From Thamnocephalis sphaerospora (lineage: Eukaryota > Zoopagomycota > Zoopagomycetes > Zoopagales > Sigmoideomycetaceae), in the NCBI GenBank assembly GCA_003614735.1, contig KZ992585.1, positions 1 through 28,167 of the forward strand: 28,167 nt of DNA, written 5' to 3'. Made by a program: the position numbers and the translations under genes. The notes under the pieces are model-generated. The model saw only the letters and a program-made list of their open reading frames with translations. It made no database searches and was not told the DNA's origin. Shown here piece by piece: positions 1,197 to 22,021 of this stretch (the first letter of the stretch is position 1; each line of letters begins with the position of its first letter).

Positions 1197-3749
1197 ATGC
1201 CTACTGACGTGGATCCCCCCATATTTACGATATATGTCGATACACAGGATATTGCACAGGTTGAGGACGCAGAGCCGAGTGGCGGCGAAAGCGACCGATT
1301 GCCAGGAGACAGTGGCGAGGCACGGAATCTGAATGACGACAACCGCAGCGACAACAGCGAAGCGTCAGCAACCGCAGCGGGGCAGAATGCACACCAGAGT
1401 CAAAGAAACGCGGACACTACGATTGTGTCTGACCATGACGACACGTAAGTTGGGGCTGCTAGACTGCTGTCGACTTTGCGAGCGGAATCTCACGAGGCTA
1501 GCGTTGCACCATATTCGTTGCGTACTCTAGCGACGTTATAGAACAGTCGACGGAAGACGGCGACGTATTTCAGGGATCTGCAAACCACGCGCACAGCACG
1601 AGTCTTGGCAAGCGGCGCCGTGCTGACCAGTGCCGAGTGGAAGACGAAGATGACGATGAGGTGCGCGCTCACACAGGGCAGTCAATATTGTGCTGATGCT
1701 GACCTGCGGAAACTGGATGTGGTGGCATTTAGGCTAGTCAGTGCATCATCTGCTTTGAGGCATGGTCACAGCTAGGCCCGCATCGCGTCGTTGCGTTAGT
1801 CTGTGGGCATTTATTCGGTGAATGGTGAGATGTGGTAAAGATAGGTACAGGGCGATAATGACGCTGCTAACGTGCATCGCTAGTTGTATTCGGAAATGGC
1901 TATCAAGCAAAAACAGCTCACGCAAGTCGCATGGCAAGTGCCCGCAGTGCAAGTAAGAGATGCAGGCGCTTGGCTAGTTGCCAAGTCGGTGCGACTGCTT
2001 ACATGTGCGGTGGGCGCCTCAGCCAACAGGCGCGTCTAAAGGACATACGGCCAATCTGGGTGCGTCGAGTTGTTGCTGTCGACAACGGTGCTGTACTGGA
2101 AGCAGAGCGCGTTGCCAGCGAAGAGCGGGCGCGCCGCGTTGAACTGGAAGTGGAGCGTGCCAAGGCCCAAATGGCTTATCGCATGGCTATGGTACGTTGC
2201 TCGGTAGGTTCCTGCGATATTGTGGCATTAACGCCCACTGGCTGCCAGGAAAGCCTAGAAATGGCGCAGAGTGAAATACAAAGACTTCAGACTATAGTTG
2301 AACGGTAAATGACGCACTCGGTTTTTTGCAATTGCACTGCCAACACAACCTTGTTAGGTATTTACCGGACCATCTTGCCGAAACAGTCGGCGATTTGGCA
2401 CCTGAAGCACAGGGAGCTGCGCCAGTGCGGTGGCCCTCAGGCAATCGTGAAGTTAGATTCAGGCAGATACACGCCATACCGGTTGATGTTCAGGCAAGAC
2501 CTAGCATCTGGGAACCTTATTTGTGTGTGCATCGACTGACACACAGCTGCGCACAGCATGCCTCACTGCGAGCATTGTCGTTTGGCAATGAGACGGGCAC
2601 CATGCTAATTGGATGCAAAGAGCCGTCTGCGACTGCTGGCGAACGCTATGGCATAGCGCGTGTGCGTCTTGATGGCACCATGGATCGGTTTGCTTCTTTG
2701 CACGACAAATCAGTACGCGATTTGCATGTCCACACGCTCGATAGTCTTCAGTTGACGGTCAGTCTCGACCGGACAATGCAGCTGTCTTCTTTAGACACGC
2801 CTACCGCCAGCGTCCAAACGTGAGTACGTCACTTGCGCTTGGTAGAGTCAACGTTAACCGTTACTGGGCTGCCTGTGTAGATTTGATTTGGGTGCACCCG
2901 GCTGGTCGTGTGCCTGGCAGCCAAAGGATCCGGCCTATATCGCAGCTGGCCTAGCCAACGGCACTGTACTGCTATTTGACCGCCGCCACCATTTGCGGCC
3001 ACTGCGTAGATTGGAAGGCGCACGGTGGCTTGGTATCAAACCAACGCATTCCCTTGCGTTTCTTGGATCGCAGCCAGGAGCAGCAGCAGCCTCGTCCTCG
3101 GGTGGCATTGATGCGATGCTTGCTGCAGCCAACTTTGACCGTGTGCTGGTCTGGCACTGGGATGAGCTGTGCCGTATTGGTGTCAGTACAGATCCACCAC
3201 GCCGCGTCCTGCACACATCGGCGGCCGACACATCATGCTATGCTATGAGCGTTGATCCGGTCAGCGGGCAGTGTCTGCTGTCCCATCGACAGGGATATTC
3301 CGCATCCACCCGCCATGTGGCCGGTAGCATCGGCTCTACAAATACCCCTGATGATCCAGCGTCGGTCACTTTTCAGGTGCAAAGTTCCGTGTCGCTTCCT
3401 TTGTCTCAACTGACGCTGGCGCGCAACGCACTATTCTCAGTCGGTGCAGCACAGAACGGGCGTGCTCGCGTGTTTGCCGGTATTGGCGTAAACGCATCCC
3501 ACACTGTACGTATTCTTGATGCACTCCTTGTCGTTTTCAGCTGCCTGCTCACATGCATCTTCTCGCGCACAGGTACAACTCTTTGACATGGCCGATGGCA
3601 CTGGCAAACAGGTGCTAAATCTGCCAGCAACTGCTTCAGCACTAGCAATCTGCCATCAGCCAGACAGAGCGGGCGATGGCTCGACGGCCGGCCGGCTGGC
3701 TGTCATCACCGGCACGCATTTGTACACCTATAACGCTGTTCTTACATAG
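1197..3749 (+). CDS. RFWD3: RFWD3-like E3 ubiquitin ligase (RING, coiled coil, WD40)
   Basis: Proposed exons are 1197-1444, 1531-1660, 1742-1824, 1884-1952, 2023-2191, 2249-2304, 2358-2819, 2881-3505 and 3573-3749. All junctions are GT...AG and keep frame, giving 672 aa (human RFWD3 is about 774). An acidic, Ser/Asp-rich N-terminus is followed by a RING at residues about 127-176: CIIC, then CGHLFG, then CIRKWL, then CPQCN. This matches the RFWD3 spacing and flanks. A charged coiled coil spans about 178-252, and the C-terminal half resembles the RFWD3 WD40 propeller (for example GTVLLFDRR). In vertebrates RFWD3 ubiquitinates RPA and RAD51 at stalled forks and crosslinks and stabilises p53; the fork role would be nuclear here. 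The start at 1197 is a choice. An in-frame ATG at 1158 or an upstream exon is possible. The fifth intron (2192-2248) is 57 nt and stop-free. The gene is convergent with the Ki-67-like gene. Confidence 0.88.
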
Positions 3750-3876: not shown

Positions 3877-6649
3877 TTATTGCACGCGCCGCGACCGGAG
3901 TGCGCGGCTGGGCACCGCCTCCAGCTCCTCTACAGCCGCCTTTTTGGAGGCGGCGCTGCGACGGGTCCGCTTGGGCGGCGATGCTGCAGGTTCCTCGACA
4001 GACGCGTTACGCTTGGTGGCGCCACGCGCGCCACGCTTGGGCGCGGGCTGGTTCTCCTTTTCGTTTTCCTGCACATCATCAGCCTGAGCTTCAATGTCTG
4101 CTTCCGAGACCACTTTGGGCGTGTCACGGCGAGTGCGGCGACGTACTGCAGATTCCGCTGCGGAACGCGAGCGTAAGTATCTTATATCATTGGCGAATGC
4201 ATTTCACGTACCGTTTTCGGTGGTTACAGCGGCATCTTCAGATGCAGACGGAGCGGTCTTGCTGGCTGCAGCACGCCGGCCACGGCGTGGCGCAGGTGTT
4301 TCAGCCGTTGGTGCAACAGATGTCGCGTCCGTCTCTGGCTTGCTCTCTGGCTCTGCTTGCTTGACTGCAGCTCGTCGGCCACGGCGCGGTGCGGGCTTTT
4401 CAACAGCCGGCTCAGCCGTCTCTGCGAGCTCAGACTCGGCCTGCTTTGCACTGCGACGTCCACGCCGTGTCGGTGATGCCAGCGGCTCGTCCACCTCCAT
4501 AGGCGTTTCGCTCTGTTCAGTGGTTGCTGCATGCAGCGCTGGTGCTGCAGCTGCCGCGCGACGCCCGCGACGTTTGGGTGCCTCTCCAGCAGCTGGCGTG
4601 CTAGCAGATGTCTGATCTGGCTGCTCAGTCGCTTCGGTGGCCTTCCGACCGCGACTGCGGCCTCGACGCAGCGTGGTTGTCTCTGCCACAGGCTCCGGTT
4701 CTTGTACAAGTGCAGGCTCACTGGACTCTTTCTCCATTTCGACGGAGGCGCCAGCAGCATGGCTCTCTGCCCGCGCACCTGCACTACGGCCGGCTCTACG
4801 ACTAGCACGTACAGTTGGCACCGGTTCCGGCCCGGCGTCGTCGGCCTTTTCGAGTTGCGGCTCAGTGTTCTCTGTGCTCTCAACCACCTTTGCAGCAGTC
4901 TGGCCACGCGTACGACGAGCAGGCGTGGGTGCAACTTTTGCTGCTGCCGCACGGCCACGACCACGTCGTGTCGCTGGCGGGTGCGCCTCGGTGGTCGTCT
5001 CCAAAGCATCCTGGCCACTGTCTGCGGCCGGGGCAACATCCACCATCTCTGTGTCTGGCGCGCACACTGTATCCTTGGCCTGACGACGAGCTGTCCTGCG
5101 CGTTGTCTTTTTCGGTGTCGGTGGCATTTCCTCTGCTTGTTTGTTTGCCTGGATGGCAGGCGTCGCATCGTAGCGGCGACTACGGGTTGTATGCACTGGC
5201 TCTTCAGTATCGGCAATAGCAGCGGTCACAGCTTCTGTTGCTTCCTCAGTAGCGTCGACATCGGGTGAATCCTCCTGGTTAGACACTGGCTCTGTCACTG
5301 CATCAGGAGTAGATTCGGTGTCCATGACATCTTCAGGCGGCGAATTGGCAACAACAGTATCCTGCGACGTTTCGGGCGCCGTGTCTGCGCATATGGGTAC
5401 AGATCGAGCCAGCGACGAAGACGATAGCGTGGATGTATGCTTTGCTGTTGGCGGCGCTGGTGACTGCAACATCTCCGCTATACCGTCGGTGGCGTAGCTG
5501 TGCGTTGTCGGCCGCTTTGGTGTCTTGAAAATGCCTTGGACACCCTCAAAGCATGTCGCGTGTGACTGCTGCGGCGTCTGTACCAGCTCGCGTACACCAA
5601 TATAGCGCTGCTGCACCGGCTGTTTGGGTGTTTGCATGGTTTCACGCACGCCTACGTAGACCGGCTCGTCACCCTGGCGCGGCGTCTGCATCGTCTCACG
5701 TAGACCAACGTAGACCGGCTCTGTATCCTGTCGCGGTGTCTGCATCGTCTCACGTAGACCAACATAGACTGGCTCAGCATTGTGACGAGGTGTTTGCATC
5801 GTCTCGCGTACACCGGTGTATGCTGGTTCAGCGCCCTGGCGAGGCGTTTGCATCGTCTCTCGCACGCCAACATACACGGGCTCGGTCGCCTGATGAGGTG
5901 TTTGCATGGCTTCGCGCACACCCACGTACACTGGCTCGTCGCCCTGACGCGGTGTCTGCATTGTTTCGCGTATGCCTGCGTAGATGGGCTCAGCATCTTG
6001 GCGAGGCGTATTCATCGTTTCGCGCACCCCCGTCAGATCAACCTCTTTAGCTGGCTTGGGCGTCTGCACGAGTTCACGGACGCCAAGCAGTGTCGTCTCC
6101 TGCGCTGGTCCTGGCGTCTTGACCAGCTCACGCACGCCAACAAGCTCCATCTCCTTGGCTGGCTTGGGCGTAGCTACCAGTTCTCGCACACCCAGCAAGA
6201 CTGGCTCTTCGGTGACCTTGGGCGTTGCAACCAGCTCGCGCACGCCAACTAAACTCGACGATGTGCTTTGTACTGCCTTTGGTGTGTGCATGAGATCACG
6301 CACCCCGGTGTACCTTGGCGTAGCAGCTGTGGGCGGTGCTTTAGGCGTCTTCATCATTTGCGCAACACCAAGAAGCTGCGGCGAAGGACGTGGTCGTGGT
6401 GTTCGTAACAACTCGGCCACGCCATGCAAATCTACACTCTGCGGCTTCTTGGGCGACTTTAGCAAGCGCATTAGGCCAATGGCCAGAGGAGAATCGGTCC
6501 GGTCGCCGCTGGACGTCGAGGGCTTGGACGGCGTGTGTAGTGGACCACTGGATGCGGATGAGGTGGCGGCCTGCACGTCATCATCGTCATCCGACTGAGC
6601 GCTGGTAAATTGCTGAGCCGTGTCTACGATATCTGTCGCAGTGGTGTGC

Positions 6650-6718
<69 letters not shown>

Positions 6719-9183
6719 TCCACTGCAACATAATTTTCTGCAAACGGCATAATCTCTGGTCCGACCCTCTCTTCCAACGACGTATCGCCTCGCAAGGGTG
6801 TAATCTACAAGGGACAACGGTGAGTAGAAAGTCGGCAGTGGTAAAGCAGTGCAATCGACATGCATGCGCGCTAAATACCTTAACAAGCGGCTGTCCTGGA
6901 CTGGCCGTGCCAAGCAAGCTCTCAACGCCGCCCATCATGCGGCGACCCAGCAGTGCTGGCGAGCTGAAGAGACTACCAAAACCATTGAAGCCTGGTGTGG
7001 CTGGGCCAGGCGATGGGAGTTGCGTCGGCGGTGCACGTGATGCCGACGACAGGGTAAGCATGGGTGCCGGCGCTGCTGCTAAAGTACCAGCGTCCTGAGC
7101 TGCACTTTTGTCGCGTCGATTCACGGGCGTCGCTTGATAAGCAGCATCCTCGGCACTGCCAGATGGCGACACCAGCTGCAAGTGCTGCAGCGTAGACCGT
7201 GCTCCGGCCGCAATGGGTGACGGTTCAGTCTCGCTGTTGGGCGATGCAAATACTTCACGTATCGTCGTGCGCTGCAGAGTGGCTGTCGCGGTCGGACGCG
7301 TCGTCGTAGGCATATGGCGTACCTCAAAGCTGCCCGACTCGGTAACAAGGCGTCGAACACGTACACTAGGCGCACTGCGTGGCACTGGACGCGATAACGC
7401 TGCGCGTAGTGCGGGTCGAATCGCTGTGCGACTGGGCGTGTCAACGCGGCGACCACGGCGCACCGGTGTGGAGGGCGGCTGTCGATAGTCAAACACCTCT
7501 GGGCTAAGATCTGGTCCCCAGGTCACGGTACGCCGTGCTGACTGAGCGCTGGCTGCATTATCAGGCAGGGCGAGAGCAGAAGCATTGCTGGCCTGAGGCG
7601 TGTTGGTAACCGACGCGCTCAGCTGCATGCTGGCATTCAAAAGTGCATCGGCGACATCCGAGGCTGCGTCGCACGCGGCCTCAGCAAGGACCGACAGGTC
7701 AGCGTCAAAAATGTCGTCCTGGTGCAAAAAGATGTTGCCAAGCAAGCTAGAATTGCGGAGAGCCGTCTCCAGAATGGAGGAAGCCGTGCGAGCGGGCGTC
7801 TCAACCGCCGGCGTCATGTCTGTCTTCCAAAGCGAATCTAGCGCGTCGCTCTGCATCTCCATTTGAGCTTCTTCTAACAGTGCTGCAGCCTCTTTGCTGA
7901 TAGCATCTGTCGGGATGTAACCACTAGACTCGGCTGCAATCGCCGGTGTACCATCGTCAATGGCGACCGACTGGTACGCATCGTCTGACTGCTCTGTTGC
8001 ATCGGCTACCGCTGGTGACCGCTTATTGGGCGTTGGGACCATGCGGCTGGGAAGCATACCCGGGTGAAGAGAGGCGCGACGATGCTCGGCTTCCGCATCC
8101 GGAGACTCGTCCGCATCACGCAGACGGTCAAGTTCCCGCGGATCCAGCGAGACACGGCTGGACGGCTTACGATTGGCAAACTCGGGCAACGTCACCGGGT
8201 CTATCGTATGAAAACTGCTTAGCCATCGATGGTGAATTTGCTACCCGCTGCTCCCCATGCTACACTTACGCTTTCGATGGGGCGATGGCGGCCTAGCTGA
8301 TGTCGACTCGTTGGCAGGCGCTGGCTCGCTGGCAGAACTATACTCTGCCAGCATTTCGTCATCCAAGGTACTCGCCATCATTGGCGGTGGTGCCTGCTCG
8401 TCAATCATCAGCAGGAGTGCTTCCTCGCCCGGGTGTGCAGGTGAGCGTGCGGCATCAGCTTTGCCCTCGGGAGATGGCATGGTATCACTCTCGGCCGCTC
8501 GCTTTGCCTGCAGCATATCGCGCACAGAGCGGTTGATGGATCTTGCTGCGTGTGTGCTCGACCGGCGTGCCGAGCGTGTTGGCGTGATGCTTGCAGTCAT
8601 TTCTTGATGACGTCGTGAACGGGGCGTCTGAGTATTCTGCGCGGTGTGCCAATTCCCAGGCCATGACGCATGCCGGTTAATTACGTCGCTGTTTATCGTG
8701 CCACATCATCACCGGCCAACTTACAGCGCTGCGCGGTGGCGTTGAGCGGACAACCTCAAAGCGGAACTCGCGGCCGGCAATGCCGATCACATCGCCGTCT
8801 TTTAGCTGATGCGCTTCGTGCAGCTTGAGCGGCTGATTGTTGAGCAAGGTTCCGTTCTTGCTGCGGTTTGTAATCCACGGCTAGACATATGCCGTGTTAG
8901 CAGGGCGTAACATGATTCTGGCTGCGGTCTACAAGTACCTACCACATTGGCATCGTCAAACTCGACGACACAGTGGTTCTCGGACACTTCAGGTAGCTGC
9001 AAGCGAACATGCCCCTTTCTGTGTCATTCGATAGCGTATGTTAGCACTCGACGAATGGACCGGTGCACACGACAGCAAGCGCTACACGCACCGGCCAAAG
9101 TGGCATACACGATTGGTGATGGGGTAGGACGAAAGATCACGTCCATTGCGTCGCGTAATAACAATATTGGCTAAATGCGCCAT
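3877..9183 (-). CDS. MKI67-like: Ki-67-like FHA / PP1-docking / TP-repeat chromosomal protein
   Basis: Exons in transcript order are 9183-9092, 9018-8943, 8880-8725, 8636-8270, 8200-6879, 6804-4212 and 4157-3877. They join in frame to 1628 aa. Residues 1-100 form an FHA domain with FGR at 29-31, SENH at 43-46, KNG at 64-66 and DGDVIGI. It aligns by eye with the Ki-67 FHA (LQLPEVSENHC beside the human IQLPVVSKQHC). Residues about 454-480 contain RTVTWGPDLSPEVFDY then PSTPVRRG. This is the PP1-binding signature of Ki-67 and Repo-Man (RVxF-type core, then PEVFD and NTPL-like). Residues about 790-1120 carry 18 tandem GVRE-MQTP repeats, comparable with the GFKELFQTP core of Ki-67 repeats. A 23-Thr run precedes them. 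From about 1180 to the end the chain is basic with many RRGRRAAA blocks (AT-hook/LR-like), and a KEN box lies at 1569-1571. Expected role: mitotic chromosome surface and nucleolus, recruiting PP1, controlled by CDK. Function is inferred. Confidence 0.85.
5455..6480 (-). repeat. Tandem 54-nt (18-residue) TP repeats in the Ki-67-like gene
   Basis: The minus strand encodes 18 units of the form GVRE-(TM/LV)-QTP-(RK), plus one degenerate leading unit (LMRLLKSPKK). The central units (about 5570-6030) have a regular 18-residue period with near-identical DNA. The flanking units vary in length and sequence, as expected if the core expanded recently. Almost every unit carries a TP or SP dipeptide, the minimal CDK target, usually followed by a basic residue or RQ. 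Confidence 0.9.
6651..6718. repeat. (TAG)n / (ACT)n trinucleotide microsatellite encoding poly-Thr
   Basis: Twenty-two uninterrupted ACT codons (minus strand) plus one ACG codon encode 23 consecutive threonines in the Ki-67-like protein, upstream of the TP repeats. The array is perfect, so its length is probably polymorphic. In other frames it yields poly-Ser, poly-Leu or poly-Tyr, which are artefacts. Confidence 0.97.
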
Positions 9184-9482: not shown

Positions 9483-9973
9483 TCAAAGACACGCAACCAG
9501 CATGGCTTCGACGCGCTGAAGCAGATCCCGCGAGGGTACGGTAGCTGTACGCAGCGTGATGCTGACGAGTAGCGGGCGCTGTTCCTGCGGCCGCTGTGCT
9601 GCCACCTTCTCCGCCAGCTGGGTTGCAAATAGCTGTTGCAATTCCTGTTGGTCAGTGCTCACGGTAAACACTGGCAGCGGCACAAGTCGACTGCAGGCCT
9701 CTGTGTCTGCGTTGCCCAACAGCTCATCCATGAAATTGGGTACCTTTGCGCACTCGCTCAGCGTACATTGCAGCTAGATGCGAGCAGGCTTGGCGTTAGT
9801 CACGGTGTGCTGGTGCCTGGCCAGACACTTACCAAATTGCCAATCTTTCCTAGCTGCGTAACCAGCACTAGGAGGCGATCGCGAAATTCGGCCAGCAGCA
9901 CCTCGGTATGGACGCCGTGCACCAACTCGGCCTGCTGGCGAATCTTTAGGGGAAACGGGGACGGTGCAGCCAT
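9483..9973 (-). CDS. PSMG3: Proteasome assembly chaperone 3 (PAC3)
   Basis: Two exons, 9973-9833 and 9773-9483, separated by a 59-nt intron (GTAAGT...CATCTAG), encode 143 aa. The N-terminal half reads HGVHTEVLLAEF then ILVLVTQ-like LLVLVTQLGKIGNL. This matches the PSMG3 core seen in the human protein (CGVPTQVVCTAF ... ILVLVTQFGKMG). The C-terminal half has the family pattern of a helix and strand (LLVSITLRT) and a closing helix. PAC3 pairs with PAC4 and helps assemble the 20S proteasome alpha-ring in the cytosol. Human PSMG3 is about 122 aa. The ATG at 9973 was chosen because the family begins just before this point; a longer in-frame extension to 10075 exists but is not family-like. The gene lies in tandem with the Ki-67-like gene, about 300 bp upstream. 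Confidence 0.85.
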
Positions 9974-14362: not shown

Positions 14363-15241
14363 TGGCGTATGTGTGTATGTGCATGGCGCACGTGTGTCCG
14401 ATGTCTGCATAAATGATTGCTACACCTCCTATTCCATGTTATGTTTAGCGGCCAGTTTGCTAGCACTTTACGTTACTCTTGGCATGGCCGATCGTACACA
14501 GCACGCCCATATCTGGCGCACGCTCGACGCTTTGCCCGCCCGTCCTTAGCTGCTATTAATAGACCGCACAAAGAACGAGTGTGGCACACCTAAGGCGTGC
14601 GCGCGCTCGCTTACGCTTGCTTGTTGCTTGTTGCGCATCAGTGTGGGCAGCATGCCCCGTCCCGCTGCACGCAGGTGGTGCCACATTGCGCTTGACTTAC
14701 TTGGGCGGCCGTAACCAATCTGCAGACACGGATTCGACGGTGCGACGGCACTGCCACACTCGTATATCATCGCGTGTCTCCTCCCTAGCAAGCGCCGCTG
14801 CTGCTATTCTGGTCTATAAGAAACAGGCGGCAGTGACCTGCACTTGCATACTGCCTGTGTACTTTTTACCCTCCGCCAACCATTCTGCCGGCCGCCTGAC
14901 TTGCATTGATCCACCCCACGGACGCTATCTCGCTCGCTTGCTCGCTCTCTTTCTCTGTTTCTATCGCTTGCTTCCATTCGGACGCTCGCTCTTCTAGCTT
15001 ATCTGCGTAAGCCACGCCCTGTCTCCGACTTGAGACCGTGTCACGGCCGCCTGTGGCTGCTAATTCACTTAAAGACACTGTGGTTGGCAGTGCCGCCGGT
15101 GTGCTCTAAACCGCTCAACGCTGCTCGCCACCAACGCCACGACTGGATTGTGCGCCGTCCTGCCATCGTCGCACATTCCGTCCTTGCATACACGCTACCG
15201 CTTCACCGCCACTATCACGGTCATCGCCGTTGCCAGTGACC
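14363..15241. other. Intergenic stretch between FARSA and an F-box gene
   Basis: This 880-bp gap contains no recognised gene. It includes a pyrimidine-rich CGCTCGCTTG/CTCTTTCT tract at about 14925-14980, which could lie in the promoter or leader of the downstream F-box gene. Open frames such as the GTG-started one at 14581-14997 are low in family-like features and appear random. Confidence 0.4.
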
Positions 15242-17023
15242 ATGGCAGCCCGCTGGAGGTCGCTGCCATTGCAAGTACGTCAGTGCATTCTCCTCTTTTG
15301 TGATGGTCACACGGCTGCCGCGCTGGCGCACACCTGCCGCCTGCTCTACGATACCATACCGGCTGACCGCTGGCTCTGGGCCACTCTCTACGAGATGACC
15401 TTTCCGCAAACGGAAGAGGAGCGGCACTGGCGTGAATGGCAGCTGGCCGGCCTGGCGCGCACCAACGGCTATGGCGGCAATATCAGTGCAGCCACTTCCG
15501 TGGACCCGTCCGAGCCGGTGCACGCGGTCGACTGGTACCGCGTGTACCGAAGACGCGTTGCTTTGGAACGTCGCTGGCGCGCAGGCCGTTGCACCGAGCA
15601 GCGCGTGACACTGCCGCTGTCGCGCTCTCATAAAGTAGGCCAGGTCCAGGTGAAGGCCACCTCACCTTGGCGCACCATCCTGCTGCTAAGCCCAGACTGG
15701 GAGCTGCTGGTGGTGGAACACGGCTGTGCACGCGTCAACGCGCCTTACAAACTGTCGTGGGCGCCCGGCTGCTGGCCAGGTCCACGCGAGTTTCTGCAGA
15801 ATGCCGACTACATTGTCGCGGTCAGCAATTTCTCGGGACACCAGCATAGCACATGGATCTGGCGCACAGGCAGCCACAAGCCCATCACTGATCGCTGGCC
15901 TATTCTCAGCAATTCAAGCCGCTGTCCGGTCGAACTGTACGGCCGTTGGCTGCTGGTGACGGATGCCAACACAGGCGCATCGGTCACAGCCTTTAGCCGA
16001 GGCGTCTGCCGTGACTTTCACGTGCTGGATCTGGTGGATGGTGGCACTGTATCGGTGACGGTGCCTGGAGGCTATGCGACCTGCCATCTGCAAGCAGCTG
16101 GACCAGGCGGACTGCGTGTCTACTGCGGACGTCAGACCCTCGACTATGCAGGCCAGGGCCGACTCGAGTGGGAAGTCTGGGGCTGGCGCGCATCCGGTGA
16201 AGCCCATGTCACGCGTCGTGGTGCCTGTCCGATGCATGTAGATTTGTTCAACGGTCGACTTAGCTCGCGGCGTATGGATGCAGCACGCGTCCTTTTGGAA
16301 GCCCACCCAGTGTGGACCAACGATTGTCTGTACGCGGTCCACTCGCTCTACGATTCCGAGGTGCTGCATCAGGGCTCGGTAGGCGCTGGACACGCTTTCC
16401 CGCTGGGTCGTTATCATCTGCGCTATCTGCCCTGCGGTCCCACTCTGTCCGCACGGATGATCCAGAAGCCGGAAGGGCACATTCTTCTGGCAGATGCCAT
16501 CGTTGATCTGGATGTGGGAGCGCGCCAGCCTGGTCTCAATGTGCAGCTGTGCCGTGCGCTGGATGCCATCTGCTATGCTGTGCCCATCTCACCCGGCAGT
16601 AGCGACGACAAGAGCGGCTCTGCGGGCAATCTGTTGTCTGGCGTCACGCAGCCGCTTGACAACCACCATCCCAACAAGCACGACTATCACTATCTGATTG
16701 ACGCCAAGGCCGGTCGGCTGATTGGCAAGCTGCGCCTTTCAGCGGGCACTCGGCCTGCCGTGGCCGTCTGCGCCACTCACATCTGCTTGGTTGATGTACG
16801 CACGCGCACGCTCACCCTGCGAGACTTTGGCGCATCCAGCCGTACCATATCCAAGCGCACATCACGCGATACGACACGTTCCTCTACCCATGGTGGTGAT
16901 CGCACGTTGGCCGCTCGGGCAGATGCCTGGCGGCTACGTCACGCGGGTAGCTTTACCAACACACTGCGCAAAACACGGCGCCAGTCCTACAACGTGTGGG
17001 AAAGCATCTTTCGCCCAGGCTGA
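15242..17023 (+). CDS. F-box-like protein, divergent relative of the local F-box family
   Basis: A single intronless frame of 593 aa starts at ATG 15242. Residues about 5-55 have an F-box pattern: SLPLQVRQCILLF, then an Ala/Leu-rich helix with CRLLYD, then LWATLYEMTFP. The following charged segment (EEERHWREWQLAGLAR) parallels the DENELRWLRHYARTH segment of the F-box pair at 18503-21886, so they look like distant relatives. The remaining ~480 residues are rich in Trp and short beta-strand-like segments, suggesting a propeller or other beta-rich substrate-binding region; I cannot assign a repeat type. The C-terminus is basic and Ser/Thr/Arg-rich. The expected role is an SCF (Skp1-Cul1-F-box) substrate receptor. 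Its target is unknown. Confidence 0.7.
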   Translation: MAARWRSLPLQVRQCILLFCDGHTAAALAHTCRLLYDTIPADRWLWATLYEMTFPQTEEERHWREWQLAGLARTNGYGGNISAATSVDPSEPVHAVDWYRVYRRRVALERRWRAGRCTEQRVTLPLSRSHKVGQVQVKATSPWRTILLLSPDWELLVVEHGCARVNAPYKLSWAPGCWPGPREFLQNADYIVAVSNFSGHQHSTWIWRTGSHKPITDRWPILSNSSRCPVELYGRWLLVTDANTGASVTAFSRGVCRDFHVLDLVDGGTVSVTVPGGYATCHLQAAGPGGLRVYCGRQTLDYAGQGRLEWEVWGWRASGEAHVTRRGACPMHVDLFNGRLSSRRMDAARVLLEAHPVWTNDCLYAVHSLYDSEVLHQGSVGAGHAFPLGRYHLRYLPCGPTLSARMIQKPEGHILLADAIVDLDVGARQPGLNVQLCRALDAICYAVPISPGSSDDKSGSAGNLLSGVTQPLDNHHPNKHDYHYLIDAKAGRLIGKLRLSAGTRPAVAVCATHICLVDVRTRTLTLRDFGASSRTISKRTSRDTTRSSTHGGDRTLAARADAWRLRHAGSFTNTLRKTRRQSYNVWESIFRPG

Positions 17024-18191: not shown

Positions 18192-18502
18192 GTCGACAGA
18201 GGCACAGGGGAAGAGGAATCGTCACTGAGAAAGACAACAACACACCGACGAGAGAATCGTTTCTGGCGTCTTTCTGGCAACACCATGTTCTCTCAAACAC
18301 ACATGGAATGCCCTTGTCCTAGCCATGCATTTAGATATGGTAGGTTAGGATAGGCTTTGCCAAAGATAGAGAACGACTTGGTGGCAACAGCTTCAACACA
18401 CGTACATACGGCCGTCATTTAGGCCTGAAAGAATAGTCTAGACCGCACCGCTATGGTAGCACACCACGCTCGCCACCTCTTCTTTGCTCTGCCCACGTCA
18501 CC
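18192..18502. other. Divergent intergenic region between MED20 and F-box copy 1
   Basis: This 311-bp gap between divergent starts has no open frame worth calling. Its last 30 bp (from 18473) are nearly identical to the sequence upstream of the other F-box copy and belong to the duplicated tract. Confidence 0.4.
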
Positions 18503-18874
18503 ATGAACAGAGTGCCCGCCGAGATTGTCTACCGTATAGTCTACCTATCCGACGACGAAGCTGCGCTTGTTGCGCTGGCTACTACGTCACGCTGGCTGTA
18601 TGCTTGCGTGGCAGCACAACGCAAGCTGTGGCGTCTACGCTTTGAGCGCGACTTTCCCAAGCAGGACGAGAATGAGCTGCGTTGGCTGCGGCACTATGCA
18701 CGGACTCATCTAGCCCATTTGCTGTTTGCAGAAGAGCAGCAGGAGACACTTCTTCCGACGGACGAGCTACTCGACTGGTTCCACGCCTACTGTAGTCGAC
18801 GTGCAACCGAATACCGTTGGCGCCATGGACTATACAAAGAATATCAGCCCGAGCAAGCTACTGGCACGCATATT
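18473..18874 (+). repeat. Arm 1 of a 402-bp inverted duplication (F-box 5' region)
   Basis: This tract matches 21515-21916 in reverse complement without gaps, with about a dozen mismatches counted by eye (about 97% identity). It covers 30 bp of leader, the F-box and the adjoining helices. Similarity falls sharply just after ...GTHI, at about codon 124. Confidence 0.9.
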
Positions 18875-19966
18875 GGTGGTATACGCTTACAGAGTCTCTT
18901 TTCATCTGGCCGCTCCATACAACGGTCATTTGTCACATCAAAACGGATACTGTCTCCGCAACAATCGCCGGTATGGATTACCGAGCAACTGTGCTGGGGC
19001 GATGTCGATACAGATAGCATATATATTGGGACACACCAGCTGTCCGACGAGTACTTGGTTATTGCCACCATGCCTAACAGTACTGGTATATCGGTCGGAC
19101 TCAGCAGTGCCGACTTGTATGTGTGGCATCTGGATGCGCTTCATCTACCGCCACGCCTTATCGTCTCTCAGCTCGTAGGGCATTATCAGCTGTGCAAAAA
19201 CTGGCTCATAATTCGAAAGCGTTATTTTTATGGCAACATTCGAAGCAACACACTTGTGTTTGATCTTACCAAGCACACGTTTTGCCCCGATGTCATAGAA
19301 AAAGGAAGCGATAGCCTTCATGTGCAACAGGCCACCACGAAAAGCATCTACCTTCTGTGGACAGATGAAGCCAAGCTGGTCAAAGACAGTACGGCGATTT
19401 TGTTTCGACTATGGAAATTCACGCCAGACATAGCACCACCACTGCAATGCTTGATGAATTACGAGGTAGTGGTTCATGCAAAGGGAGTACTGCCTGTAAC
19501 ATACCGTGTTGATGACAACAGGTTGGTCCTATTCTATTCCCGAAACGTAGCATCAATTGCAGAAGCATCAAATCCCAATCTAATGTTGATGGAGGTTCTG
19601 GAAAGCGAATCCGGTGTGTCAATGAAAGAAAAATGGTCGCTCGCACTGGATATGGACGATGTGTACGCCATCGTATCGCGAGATCTGCTTGCCGTAAGGC
19701 TGTCGTATACAAGCTATAAGCTGCTTAACCTAGACGATGGATCTCTGTTCCGCAACATACCTGCCTCCGGATTGTACCCCTGGTGTTTGAACAACCTTTA
19801 TCCGCTACGAAACCAGTGGGCAAGCATGACTCAAGACGCAATGTGGAGTAACCCAAAGAACAATCAGGCATACAACTTTGGTTCTAACAGCAGGCAGCTA
19901 ACGTCAACAAATGCCATGCTGATTCTCGATACAAAGGCCGCCACTGTGTTTGATTTTTCTGTTTGA
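18503..19966 (+). CDS. F-box protein, inverted-pair copy 1
   Basis: An intronless frame of 487 aa. The N-terminal F-box spans about residues 1-50 (VPAEIVYRIVYLSDDEAAL, then SRWLYAC, then KLWRLRFERDFP). It is followed by a charged helical linker with LLDWFHAYCSRRATEYRWR. Residues 130-487 are rich in aromatic and beta-strand-like segments (LYVWHLDALHLPPR, LVFDLTK, LLLNLDDGSLF-like), spaced as in a beta-propeller, but no textbook repeat is clear. The expected role is an SCF substrate receptor. The first ~125 residues are almost identical to the copy at 20429-21886, while the C-terminal part is strongly diverged. This points to conserved Skp1 binding with changing target recognition. A possible poly(A) signal AATAAA follows the stop at 19976. 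Confidence 0.82.
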   Translation: MNRVPAEIVYRIVYLSDDEAALVALATTSRWLYACVAAQRKLWRLRFERDFPKQDENELRWLRHYARTHLAHLLFAEEQQETLLPTDELLDWFHAYCSRRATEYRWRHGLYKEYQPEQATGTHIGGIRLQSLFSSGRSIQRSFVTSKRILSPQQSPVWITEQLCWGDVDTDSIYIGTHQLSDEYLVIATMPNSTGISVGLSSADLYVWHLDALHLPPRLIVSQLVGHYQLCKNWLIIRKRYFYGNIRSNTLVFDLTKHTFCPDVIEKGSDSLHVQQATTKSIYLLWTDEAKLVKDSTAILFRLWKFTPDIAPPLQCLMNYEVVVHAKGVLPVTYRVDDNRLVLFYSRNVASIAEASNPNLMLMEVLESESGVSMKEKWSLALDMDDVYAIVSRDLLAVRLSYTSYKLLNLDDGSLFRNIPASGLYPWCLNNLYPLRNQWASMTQDAMWSNPKNNQAYNFGSNSRQLTSTNAMLILDTKAATVFDFSV

Positions 19967-20428: not shown

Positions 20429-21886
20429 TCAAATGGACACATCAGCCACGACAGGCACACCATCGGTAAATGATAGCATGGCATTTGGCGATGCTGATGA
20501 TCCTTCGAGTCCAGATGAAATAATGGATGGATTGGCCTTTAACTGCTCCGGCGTAACGTTCTTGCCTATGTTGACCCACTGGCTTCGTAGCGGATAAAGC
20601 CCGCTCCCGGACCAGCAATACTGTGTTGCAACTGGTATGTCATGGATCAAGGATCCGTCGCTCAGGTTCAACAGCCTACGGCCCTTGAGAGGCACGGTAA
20701 TAAGAAGCATGCCCCGCGATACGATCGGTTTTACAGCATTCAACTCCTGTGCGGTGGACCATTTTTCCTTCATAGTTACGCCAGTATCGCTTTCCGTGAT
20801 TTCCATCAGCGCTATAGTTGGTGGAATAGTATCTGTATAATTCTCCCAGTAATCGCGATTGTACATGACAAACCTGCTGTCATCGATACGGCACGTTTCC
20901 AGAGAACGATCACCAGCGTAAAACTGTGTCTCGCAGACTGCCAGGCATTGCGTTGGCGGTGCACGATCCGATGCAAAGTCCCAGAGTCGCCATGATATTG
21001 TTGCATGACTTGCCTCTAACTTGATTTTGTCCCTCCACAAAAGGCGAATGCCATCCTCGGTGGCCACTTGCATATGAATCCTGTTTGCTTCTACTTCAAG
21101 TATACCAGGATGAGATGTGCGTTTGGCAAGATCGAATATAAGCACGATGCCTGGAATGTTGTCATCCATATAATGCTTGCTAACCACCAGCCAGTTCTTG
21201 TACAGGTTGATGGAACCTGCAAATTTGCTCATGATGAGACGTGGCGGTAGGTAGAGCGCGTTCAGATGCCAGGCATACAAAGTGGCATTGGTAGATCCAA
21301 CAGACATGCTGCGTGCTTCGATAGCGATGACCAGATACTCGTCGGAATATCGGTATTCTGTAACGAACATACCATCCGTATCTACGCCATCCCAGCATAG
21401 TTGTTCGACAACCCATACTGGCTGTTGTTGCGGTGCCATAATCCGCTGCGATATGATATATATGTCTTCCAGTTCGCGACCAACAGAGATGACGCTTTGC
21501 AGGCGTACTCCGCTAATATGCGTGCCAGTAGCTTGCTCGGGCTGATATTCTTTGTATAGTCCATGGCGCCAACGGTATTCGGTTGCACGTCGACTACAAT
21601 AGACACGAAACCAGTCGAGTAGCTCGTCCGTCGGAAGAAGCGTCTCCTGCTGCTCTTCTGCAAACAGCAAGTGGGCTAGATGAGTCCGTGCATAGTGCCG
21701 CAGCCAACGCAGCTCATTCTCGTCCTGCTTGGGAAAGTCGCGCTCAAAGCGCAAACGCCACAGCTTGCGTTGTGCTGCCACGCAAGCATACAGCCAGCGT
21801 GACGTAGTAGCCAGCGCAACAAGCGCAGCTTCGTCGTCAGATAGGTAGACTATACGGTAGACAGTCTCGGCGGGCACTCTGTTCAT
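20429..21886 (-). CDS. F-box protein, inverted-pair copy 2
   Basis: An intronless frame of 485 aa starts at ATG 21886, the position equivalent to copy 1. A 14-codon in-frame extension upstream to 21928 begins outside the shared start and was not used. The N-terminal F-box and linker (VPAETVYRIVYLSDDEAAL, KLWRLRFERDFP, LLDWFRVYCSRRATEYRWR) are nearly identical to copy 1 up to about residue 124. Beyond that the proteins keep the same layout (ATLYAWHLNALYLPPRLIM, RLLNLSDGSLI, GLYPLRSQW) but differ at many positions. Its C-terminus is closer to the fragment at 1-210 (SGLYPLR, VVAD/GVAD) than to copy 1. The expected role is an SCF substrate receptor with an unknown target. The start is divergent from the Kish gene, with only 135 bp between. 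Confidence 0.82.
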   Translation of the reverse strand: MNRVPAETVYRIVYLSDDEAALVALATTSRWLYACVAAQRKLWRLRFERDFPKQDENELRWLRHYARTHLAHLLFAEEQQETLLPTDELLDWFRVYCSRRATEYRWRHGLYKEYQPEQATGTHISGVRLQSVISVGRELEDIYIISQRIMAPQQQPVWVVEQLCWDGVDTDGMFVTEYRYSDEYLVIAIEARSMSVGSTNATLYAWHLNALYLPPRLIMSKFAGSINLYKNWLVVSKHYMDDNIPGIVLIFDLAKRTSHPGILEVEANRIHMQVATEDGIRLLWRDKIKLEASHATISWRLWDFASDRAPPTQCLAVCETQFYAGDRSLETCRIDDSRFVMYNRDYWENYTDTIPPTIALMEITESDTGVTMKEKWSTAQELNAVKPIVSRGMLLITVPLKGRRLLNLSDGSLIHDIPVATQYCWSGSGLYPLRSQWVNIGKNVTPEQLKANPSIISSGLEGSSASPNAMLSFTDGVPVVADVSI

Positions 21887-21916
21887 GGTGACGTGGGCAG
21901 AACAAAGAAGAGGTGG
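21515..21916 (-). repeat. Arm 2 of the 402-bp inverted duplication (F-box 5' region)
   Basis: This is the reverse-complement partner of 18473-18874. Five of the mismatches cluster in one 12-bp patch that changes FHAYC to FRVYC. The remainder of the tract is almost invariant. Confidence 0.9.
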
Positions 21917-22021
21917 GCTATGTGGCATTGGATTACTGGTGCTCAGCTACGTCACGACAAGGTGTGAATCACTGTCGTCGCCAGCGTTCTTTCCCCACTT
22001 TGCTCTTCTTTACTGTCCACG

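Follow-up and report, generated by a model that had tools for sequence, protein, structure and literature searches.

A putative Ki-67/bridgin-family protein with an FHA domain, a PP1-docking stretch and short TP repeats in the fungus Thamnocephalis sphaerospora

Human Ki-67 (MKI67), a proliferation marker, and Repo-Man (CDCA2) bind protein phosphatase 1 (PP1) through an RVxF motif and a KiR-SLiM, and phosphorylation by Aurora B inside the RVxF motif inhibits the interaction before anaphase (PMC5005033). Ki-67 is perichromosomal and nucleolar and recruits PP1 at anaphase. The KiR-SLiM has the consensus FDxxLP(P/A)N(T/S)PL(R/K)(R/K)Gx(T/S)P, and its most degenerate pattern returns only Ki-67 and Repo-Man from Swiss-Prot (PMC5005033). 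Repo-Man shares only about 40 residues with Ki-67 (PMC5005033) and is therefore taken to have neither a Ki-67-type FHA domain nor Ki-67-type repeats. A conserved-domain motif of 22 residues is described for Ki-67 homologues (PMC4841783), and an alignment from 2014 extends Ki-67 as far as Hydra and Trichoplax (PMC4032110). Bridgin (Bgi1) of Cryptococcus neoformans was published in 2021 as a fungal Ki-67 homologue at kinetochores; it combines an FHA domain with 13 repeats, a putative PP1 site and a tail that is basic, and it links the outer kinetochore to chromatin (PMC7794384). The same study gives Ki-67 as its homologue in Metazoa and reports that the basic domain of Ki-67 can replace that of bridgin (PMC7794384), and a review places bridgin in other fungal phyla and in Amoebozoa (PMC9252888). 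Here we describe a predicted gene of this kind on a 28,167-nucleotide stretch of the fungus Thamnocephalis sphaerospora (contig KZ992585.1, positions 1 to 28,167; hereafter, the window). We consider it probable, at roughly three chances in four, that its product belongs to the Ki-67/bridgin family, as a long nuclear scaffold that would carry PP1 to mitotic chromatin and is probably disordered outside the FHA domain.

The gene model joins exons 9183-9092, 9018-8943, 8880-8725, 8636-8270, 8200-6879, 6804-4212 and 4157-3877 of the minus strand in a single frame that ends at a stop codon. In accordance, the claim of the sequence-only reading (an earlier inspection of the letters without database searches) that seven exons make one chain with FHA domain, PP1 dock, TP repeats and C-terminus agrees with the predicted splice, which covers the same coordinates. 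The sequences LQLPEVSENHC and GVRELVQTP, which it had singled out, are also present, the former in exon 2 and the latter at residues 912 and 1074. The splicing is deduced from the frame, from the splice sites (a splice-site scan finds GT-AG in all six introns) and from colinear relatives. Several introns offer more than one candidate GT or AG, and the choice was made by the open frame. An alternative splice site of intron 3 changes three residues only; an alternative acceptor of intron 6, at 4181, leads into another open C-terminal frame for the last ~90 residues.

A profile search, proposed with the sequence-only reading, finds both expected Pfam families, FHA over residues 29-90 (E 2e-11) and PP1_bind over the docking stretch (32.5 bits, cut-off 27; E 1e-7). 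When the first 108 residues are compared with solved structures, Ki-67 is the best match (2aff, E 1.2e-10; 1r21, E 1.4e-10) and the next FHA is 1uht (E 1.1e-3), a gap of about seven orders of magnitude in E. The window FHA is 39% identical to that of human Ki-67, its closest counterpart among the FHAs compared, and the alignment keeps the FGR, S and H positions of the Ki-67 domain. A hidden Markov model (HMM) built from the FHAs of human Ki-67 and of tapeworm, aphelid and chytrid relatives (described below), with the window protein left out, gives 68.9 bits to the window and 53.7 bits to a sandfly protein. The same model gives 28.4 to 49.0 bits to five non-family FHA stretches from the PDB and at most 24.2 bits to six further FHA loci of this fungus, scores that are lowered because only aligned or mostly single-exon parts were used; the best of 1000 shuffles reaches 8.1 bits. 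By best solved match and by HMM, the window FHA is of the Ki-67 N-terminal type. Ki-67 is likewise the best solved match of the aphelid (E 9.6e-9) and chytrid (E 1.1e-5) FHA regions.

The docking stretch (RRTVTWGPDLSPEVFDYRQPPSTPVRRGRR) starts at residue 453, reads RRTVTWGPDLSPEVFDYRQPPSTPVRRGRRVDTPS over residues 453-487 and is the only PP1_bind match at E <=1 found in the 14.46-Mb genome. By profile, the window protein carries the PP1-docking domain common to Ki-67 and Repo-Man. Its matches among solved structures come from PP1 complexes, with Repo-Man (5inb, E 6.1e-6; a further Repo-Man match, 9.1e-6) ahead of Ki-67 (5j28, E 4.9e-4). Over 30 aligned residues, the stretch shares 19 identities with the chytrid relative, 17 with Repo-Man and 14 with Ki-67; Repo-Man and Ki-67 share 18 with each other. 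Repo-Man resembles the window in its RVxF motif, its EV pair and its KiR-type stretch, and differs in that the window protein has a Ki-67-type FHA and repeats besides. The PEVFD...NTPL-like flank of the sequence-only reading holds in so far as the docking stretch is there, although its "NTPL-like" part reads STPV. We call the dock KiR-like because the consensus is kept only in a looser form. Arg20 of PP1-gamma favours binding of Ki-67 and Repo-Man (PMC5005033). The PP1 gene of the host (contig C345) encodes VRG at the place of Arg20. Yeast PP1 has an Arg20-type residue too, so this residue indicates compatibility and is not proof.

The repeat array spans residues 781-1120, and 15 of its 18 unit spacings are exactly 18 residues. 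The pattern G[VILMFA]xx[LMTIA][LMVFIT]x[TSA]P fits 20 units, 19 in the array and one outside it (residue 637); since this same pattern served to pick out the units, it sets their G and P columns in advance. Seventeen array units end in TP and two in SP, and the whole protein has 40 TP and 20 SP sites. For human Ki-67, the repeats are described as lying in one exon and the repeat motif is quoted as TPKEKAQALEDLAGFKELFQTP, with the core LAGFKELFQTP (PMC8354752). This motif is a TP-to-TP unit of 20 residues. On a matrix of the window units, the final 11 residues of the motif obtain a score of 22.5, a value that none of 200,000 random 11-mers reaches, TP-ended ones included; on the tapeworm-unit matrix, the score of the human core is reached by 9.5e-5 of TP-ended random 11-mers. 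All array units of the window lie within exon 6, as the one-exon arrangement of Ki-67 would have it, but the unit length differs. When the chytrid array is searched against the window genome at E <=1, three matches appear, all in exon 6, and none elsewhere. Between the PP1 dock and the repeats, the predicted coding region contains a perfect microsatellite of 23 GTA copies (plus strand, 6650-6718), which is perhaps variable in length between strains.

Toward the C-terminus, RRGRR-type motifs recur over residues 1284-1511, and the predicted isoelectric point (pI) of the last 301 residues is 10.1. The window chain ends in LRSRRVQ and the aphelid chain in LRSRRK, a similarity that is suggestive only. 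A single KEN tripeptide lies at residue 1569; among five relatives, four have no KEN and the sandfly protein has two.

Set against Ki-67 as a whole, the window protein has its nearest FHA by sequence there, and both have an RVxF-based PP1 dock with a similar flank, basic last 300 residues and tandem TP repeats with a G-x-x-E-L-x-Q-T-P core in a single exon. The Ki-67 repeats are about 120 residues long, compared with 18 in the window, and the window protein is about half as long as the human one (3256 residues).

Relatives come from a search with the repeat region that covered 5.8 billion proteins, in which scoring was confined to the 7992 candidates with most words in common. It yields at least eight matches at E <=1 (P0001-P0008); among the eight listed, six pass the PP1_bind cut-off and three the FHA cut-off. 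Both domains are present in P0001 of Hymenolepis diminuta (tapeworm), P0005 of Amoeboaphelidium occidentale (aphelid) and P0006 of Borealophlyctis nickersoniae (chytrid), and in all three, from species of two kingdoms, the order is FHA, PP1_bind, repeats. Like the window protein, these three continue from FHA and PP1_bind into GV(R/K)EL-x-K-TP repeats and a tail that contains RGR and has a pI of 9.5 to 11.3 in its final 300 residues; unlike it, they have 8 to 12 repeat matches rather than 20, and the chytrid spacing is 19-20 residues. The common ancestry with Ki-67 that had been suggested from the letters thus gains support, in that the FHA and the PP1 stretch match Ki-67 and Repo-Man best and the order of parts recurs in chytrid, aphelid and tapeworm. 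By eye, P0002 and P0004 look like N-terminally short near-copies of P0001 and P0005. P0003 lacks the FHA but carries the dock and the repeats. P0007, from the sandfly Phlebotomus argentipes and named "neurofilament heavy polypeptide-like", has the repeats, an N-terminal FHA below threshold (17.3 bits, cut-off 20.7), RGRP motifs in its tail and no PP1_bind match; it is possibly an insect Ki-67 relative that has lost the dock. P0008 (497 residues) combines GVREL-type units with two SAP domains and shows that the repeat is not confined to FHA proteins.

Several observations weigh against the assignment to the Ki-67/bridgin family. The window dock keeps 9 of the 14 fixed KiR-SLiM positions; the tapeworm keeps 12, P0003 10, the chytrid 8 and the aphelid 7, and in the solved chains Repo-Man shows 12 of 12 visible positions and Ki-67 11 of 12. 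Protein searches with the PP1 region (95 candidates) and with the FHA region (213 candidates) return nothing at E <=10 and E <=0.001, respectively. The human Ki-67 FHA finds no candidate in the whole genome, a search that is uninformative because the domain is interrupted by introns. The FHA-binding family of NIFK (hNIFK_binding) is not found in the genome either; the controls are silent too. The last 469 residues (1160-1628) have a pI of 6.35, since stretches of acidic residues come between the basic motifs; of the basic, RGRR-rich C-terminus claimed from the letters, the RRGRR motifs and the pI of the last 301 residues stand, and the basic character does not extend over the last 469. An LR domain such as that of Ki-67 is not demonstrated here, as the window protein shows no enrichment of LRx[RK] motifs (p 0.19). 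The chytrid FHA matches SNIP1 (E 2.2e-5) nearly as well as Ki-67. In the maximum-likelihood tree of 12 FHA rows, which the sequence-only reading had called for, none of the nine inner branches carries a star and the chytrid is placed with other FHAs, so that a six-member Ki-67-like group needs two label changes. Measured by path, human Ki-67 is the row closest to the window. The profile scores clearly set the Ki-67-type FHA family apart from the other FHA stretches tested, and the tree does not.

The unstarred tree would suit convergence, in which an unrelated FHA protein acquired its PP1 motif and its TP repeats independently. So would the shortness of the motifs, each of which alone could be chance, and the strict KiR-SLiM pattern, which is matched by none of the window, tapeworm, P0003, chytrid and aphelid proteins. 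However, the FHA, the PP1 stretch and the repeats each point to Ki-67 or Repo-Man, and the parts stand in the same order in the chytrid, aphelid and tapeworm proteins. We therefore regard convergence as very improbable.

The closeness of the window FHA to that of human Ki-67 could also be explained if the contig were animal contamination of a fungal assembly. The G+C content of the contig (55.8%) agrees with that of the loci for PPZ (55.7%), PP1 (58.0%) and chitin synthase (57.8%). The neighbouring Utp22 scores 238.7 bits against a fungal structure, 186.6 against a human one and 173.7 against a yeast one. In addition, the PP1 stretch is nearer to the chytrid than to Repo-Man or Ki-67. These observations argue against contamination, to which we give hardly any weight. 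The host itself is fungal, as had been supposed: the assembly contains a Chitin_synth_1 match (E 2.8e-80) and a PPZ-like phosphatase that starts MGNAPSKKGGNSLSR, and chitin synthase and PPZ phosphatases are fungal hallmarks. The solved structures 5jpe and 5jpf, which we take to be Candida Ppz1, rank above every PP1 listed for this phosphatase. A genome search for radial spoke 3 gives no match; its controls are silent, and it says nothing about flagella.

Bridgin resembles the window protein in being fungal, with the FHA first, a long repeat-bearing middle and a basic C-terminal end, which in the window protein is limited to the last 300 residues. It differs in its dock: the PP1 site of bridgin is described as "unconventional" and follows shortly after the FHA (residues 161-164), whereas the KiR-like stretch of the window lies ~350 residues downstream of the FHA. 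The middle of bridgin is acidic (pI 4.65) and carries 13 motif copies. As far as compared, the animal Ki-67 plan appears to be preserved more fully in the window protein than in the bridgin studied. The window protein may nevertheless be a bridgin-like kinetochore linker, an explanation that we hold possible and short of probable. The fungal relative of PMC7794384 acts in this way and combines repeats with a basic tail and a putative PP1 site, and Ndc80 is present in the host genome. For the CENP-C cupin family, the one match (18.2 bits) lies below the cut-off of 29 and contains an internal stop, in keeping with such a linker, but the CENP-C search also rings weakly in 8 of 14 prokaryote controls, and absences carry little weight when single exons are searched. 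Among three genomic matches to the CENP-T_C profile, one lies just above the cut-off (28.7 versus 28.1 bits) and possibly reflects only a histone fold. The difference in the dock, which in Cryptococcus is not KiR-like, also speaks against the kinetochore explanation.

The threonine inside RTVTW is preceded by arginines. From this threonine, the TP and SP sites, the conserved FHA positions and the basic motifs of DNA-binding type, we therefore read the preferred Ki-67/bridgin member as a putative CDK-regulated scaffold that targets PP1 to mitotic chromatin. The FHA would bind a phospho-threonine partner, and CDK would phosphorylate the TP repeats in mitosis. The RVxF motif and the KiR-like stretch would hold PP1, and phosphorylation of the threonine in RTVTW would block this until anaphase. 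The RRGRR tail would sit on DNA or chromatin, where PP1 could reverse mitotic phosphorylation at exit. We infer the disorder, each binding step, the timing and the place of action from the predicted chain.

A fungal Ki-67-like protein is not new, because bridgin, its wider spread and early Ki-67 are already published (PMC7794384, PMC9252888, PMC4032110). The suggestion that such a protein would make Ki-67 older than usually assumed was therefore overstated as a novelty. The further suggestion, that a perichromosomal-layer function is ancient, is not established, since the fungal relative of PMC7794384 acts at kinetochores. As far as found, what appears to be new in fungi is the combination in one chain of a KiR-like dock, 18-residue Ki-67-type repeats and a Ki-67-like FHA, common to the tapeworm protein. 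Our literature search, the scope of which ended before the homologue supplements of PMC7794384, brought up no account of fungi in which a KiR-like dock accompanies Ki-67-type repeats. These sequence comparisons suggest that the Ki-67 design predates the split of animals and fungi. More tentatively, the full Ki-67 plan (an FHA for phospho-binding, a KiR-like phosphatase dock for mitotic exit, a repeat of 18 residues with a CDK site, and a tail that is basic) might have been present in the animal-fungus ancestor; the human 120-residue repeats might have grown from the short unit, the Dikaryan bridgins might have modified the dock and taken up a role at kinetochores, and the ancestral chromosome-surface version might still be in use in this fungus. 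The fungus, chytrid and aphelid proteins provide an outgroup for Ki-67 that points to its likely ancestral parts. The short, simple repeat unit offers a way to test repeat function, and chromosome coating (Ki-67) versus kinetochore linking (bridgin) becomes testable in small fungi.

Table 1 Coordinates of the predicted gene and its parts in the window.
Feature	Position	Strand	Basis
Ki-67/bridgin-family gene (predicted), 1628 residues	3877..9183	minus	in-frame splice, seven exons, six GT-AG introns
FHA domain, residues 7-98, spread over exons 1-3	8755..9165	minus	Pfam FHA and solved relatives
PP1-docking stretch, residues 453-487	7431..7535	minus	RVxF-type RTVTW, EV pair, KiR-SLiM-like FDYRQPPSTPVRRG
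Poly-threonine tract, residues 701-725	6643..6717	minus	trinucleotide microsatellite
Tandem array, 19 units of ~18 residues, [LY]VGVRE[LT][MV]QTP	5458..6483	minus	exon 6; unit spacing
C-terminal region, RRGRR-type units, one KEN, terminal LRSRRVQ	3880..5145	minus	motif scan, pI

The neighbours on the window include an RFWD3-type WD40 gene, Med20, Utp22/Nrap and a piece of a class II tRNA synthetase (F). The WD40 gene is a convergent plus-strand neighbour (2302-3586) that matches the RFWD3 WD40 family at E 1.3e-17 over 2858-3586 and stays below the cut-off over 2302-2820. Upstream of the Ki-67-like gene, a minus-strand exon (9486-9773) shows a likeness to proteasome assembly chaperone 3 that stays below threshold (17.2 bits; cut-off 21.2). 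Further along lie two related large open frames in inverted orientation, 18437-19966 (plus) and 20429-21946 (minus), which are 57% identical over 500 residues and 89% over the first 161. By eye their N-termini are F-box-like, and neither matches a Pfam family. The start of a third frame, 15110-17023, is by eye similar to this pair.

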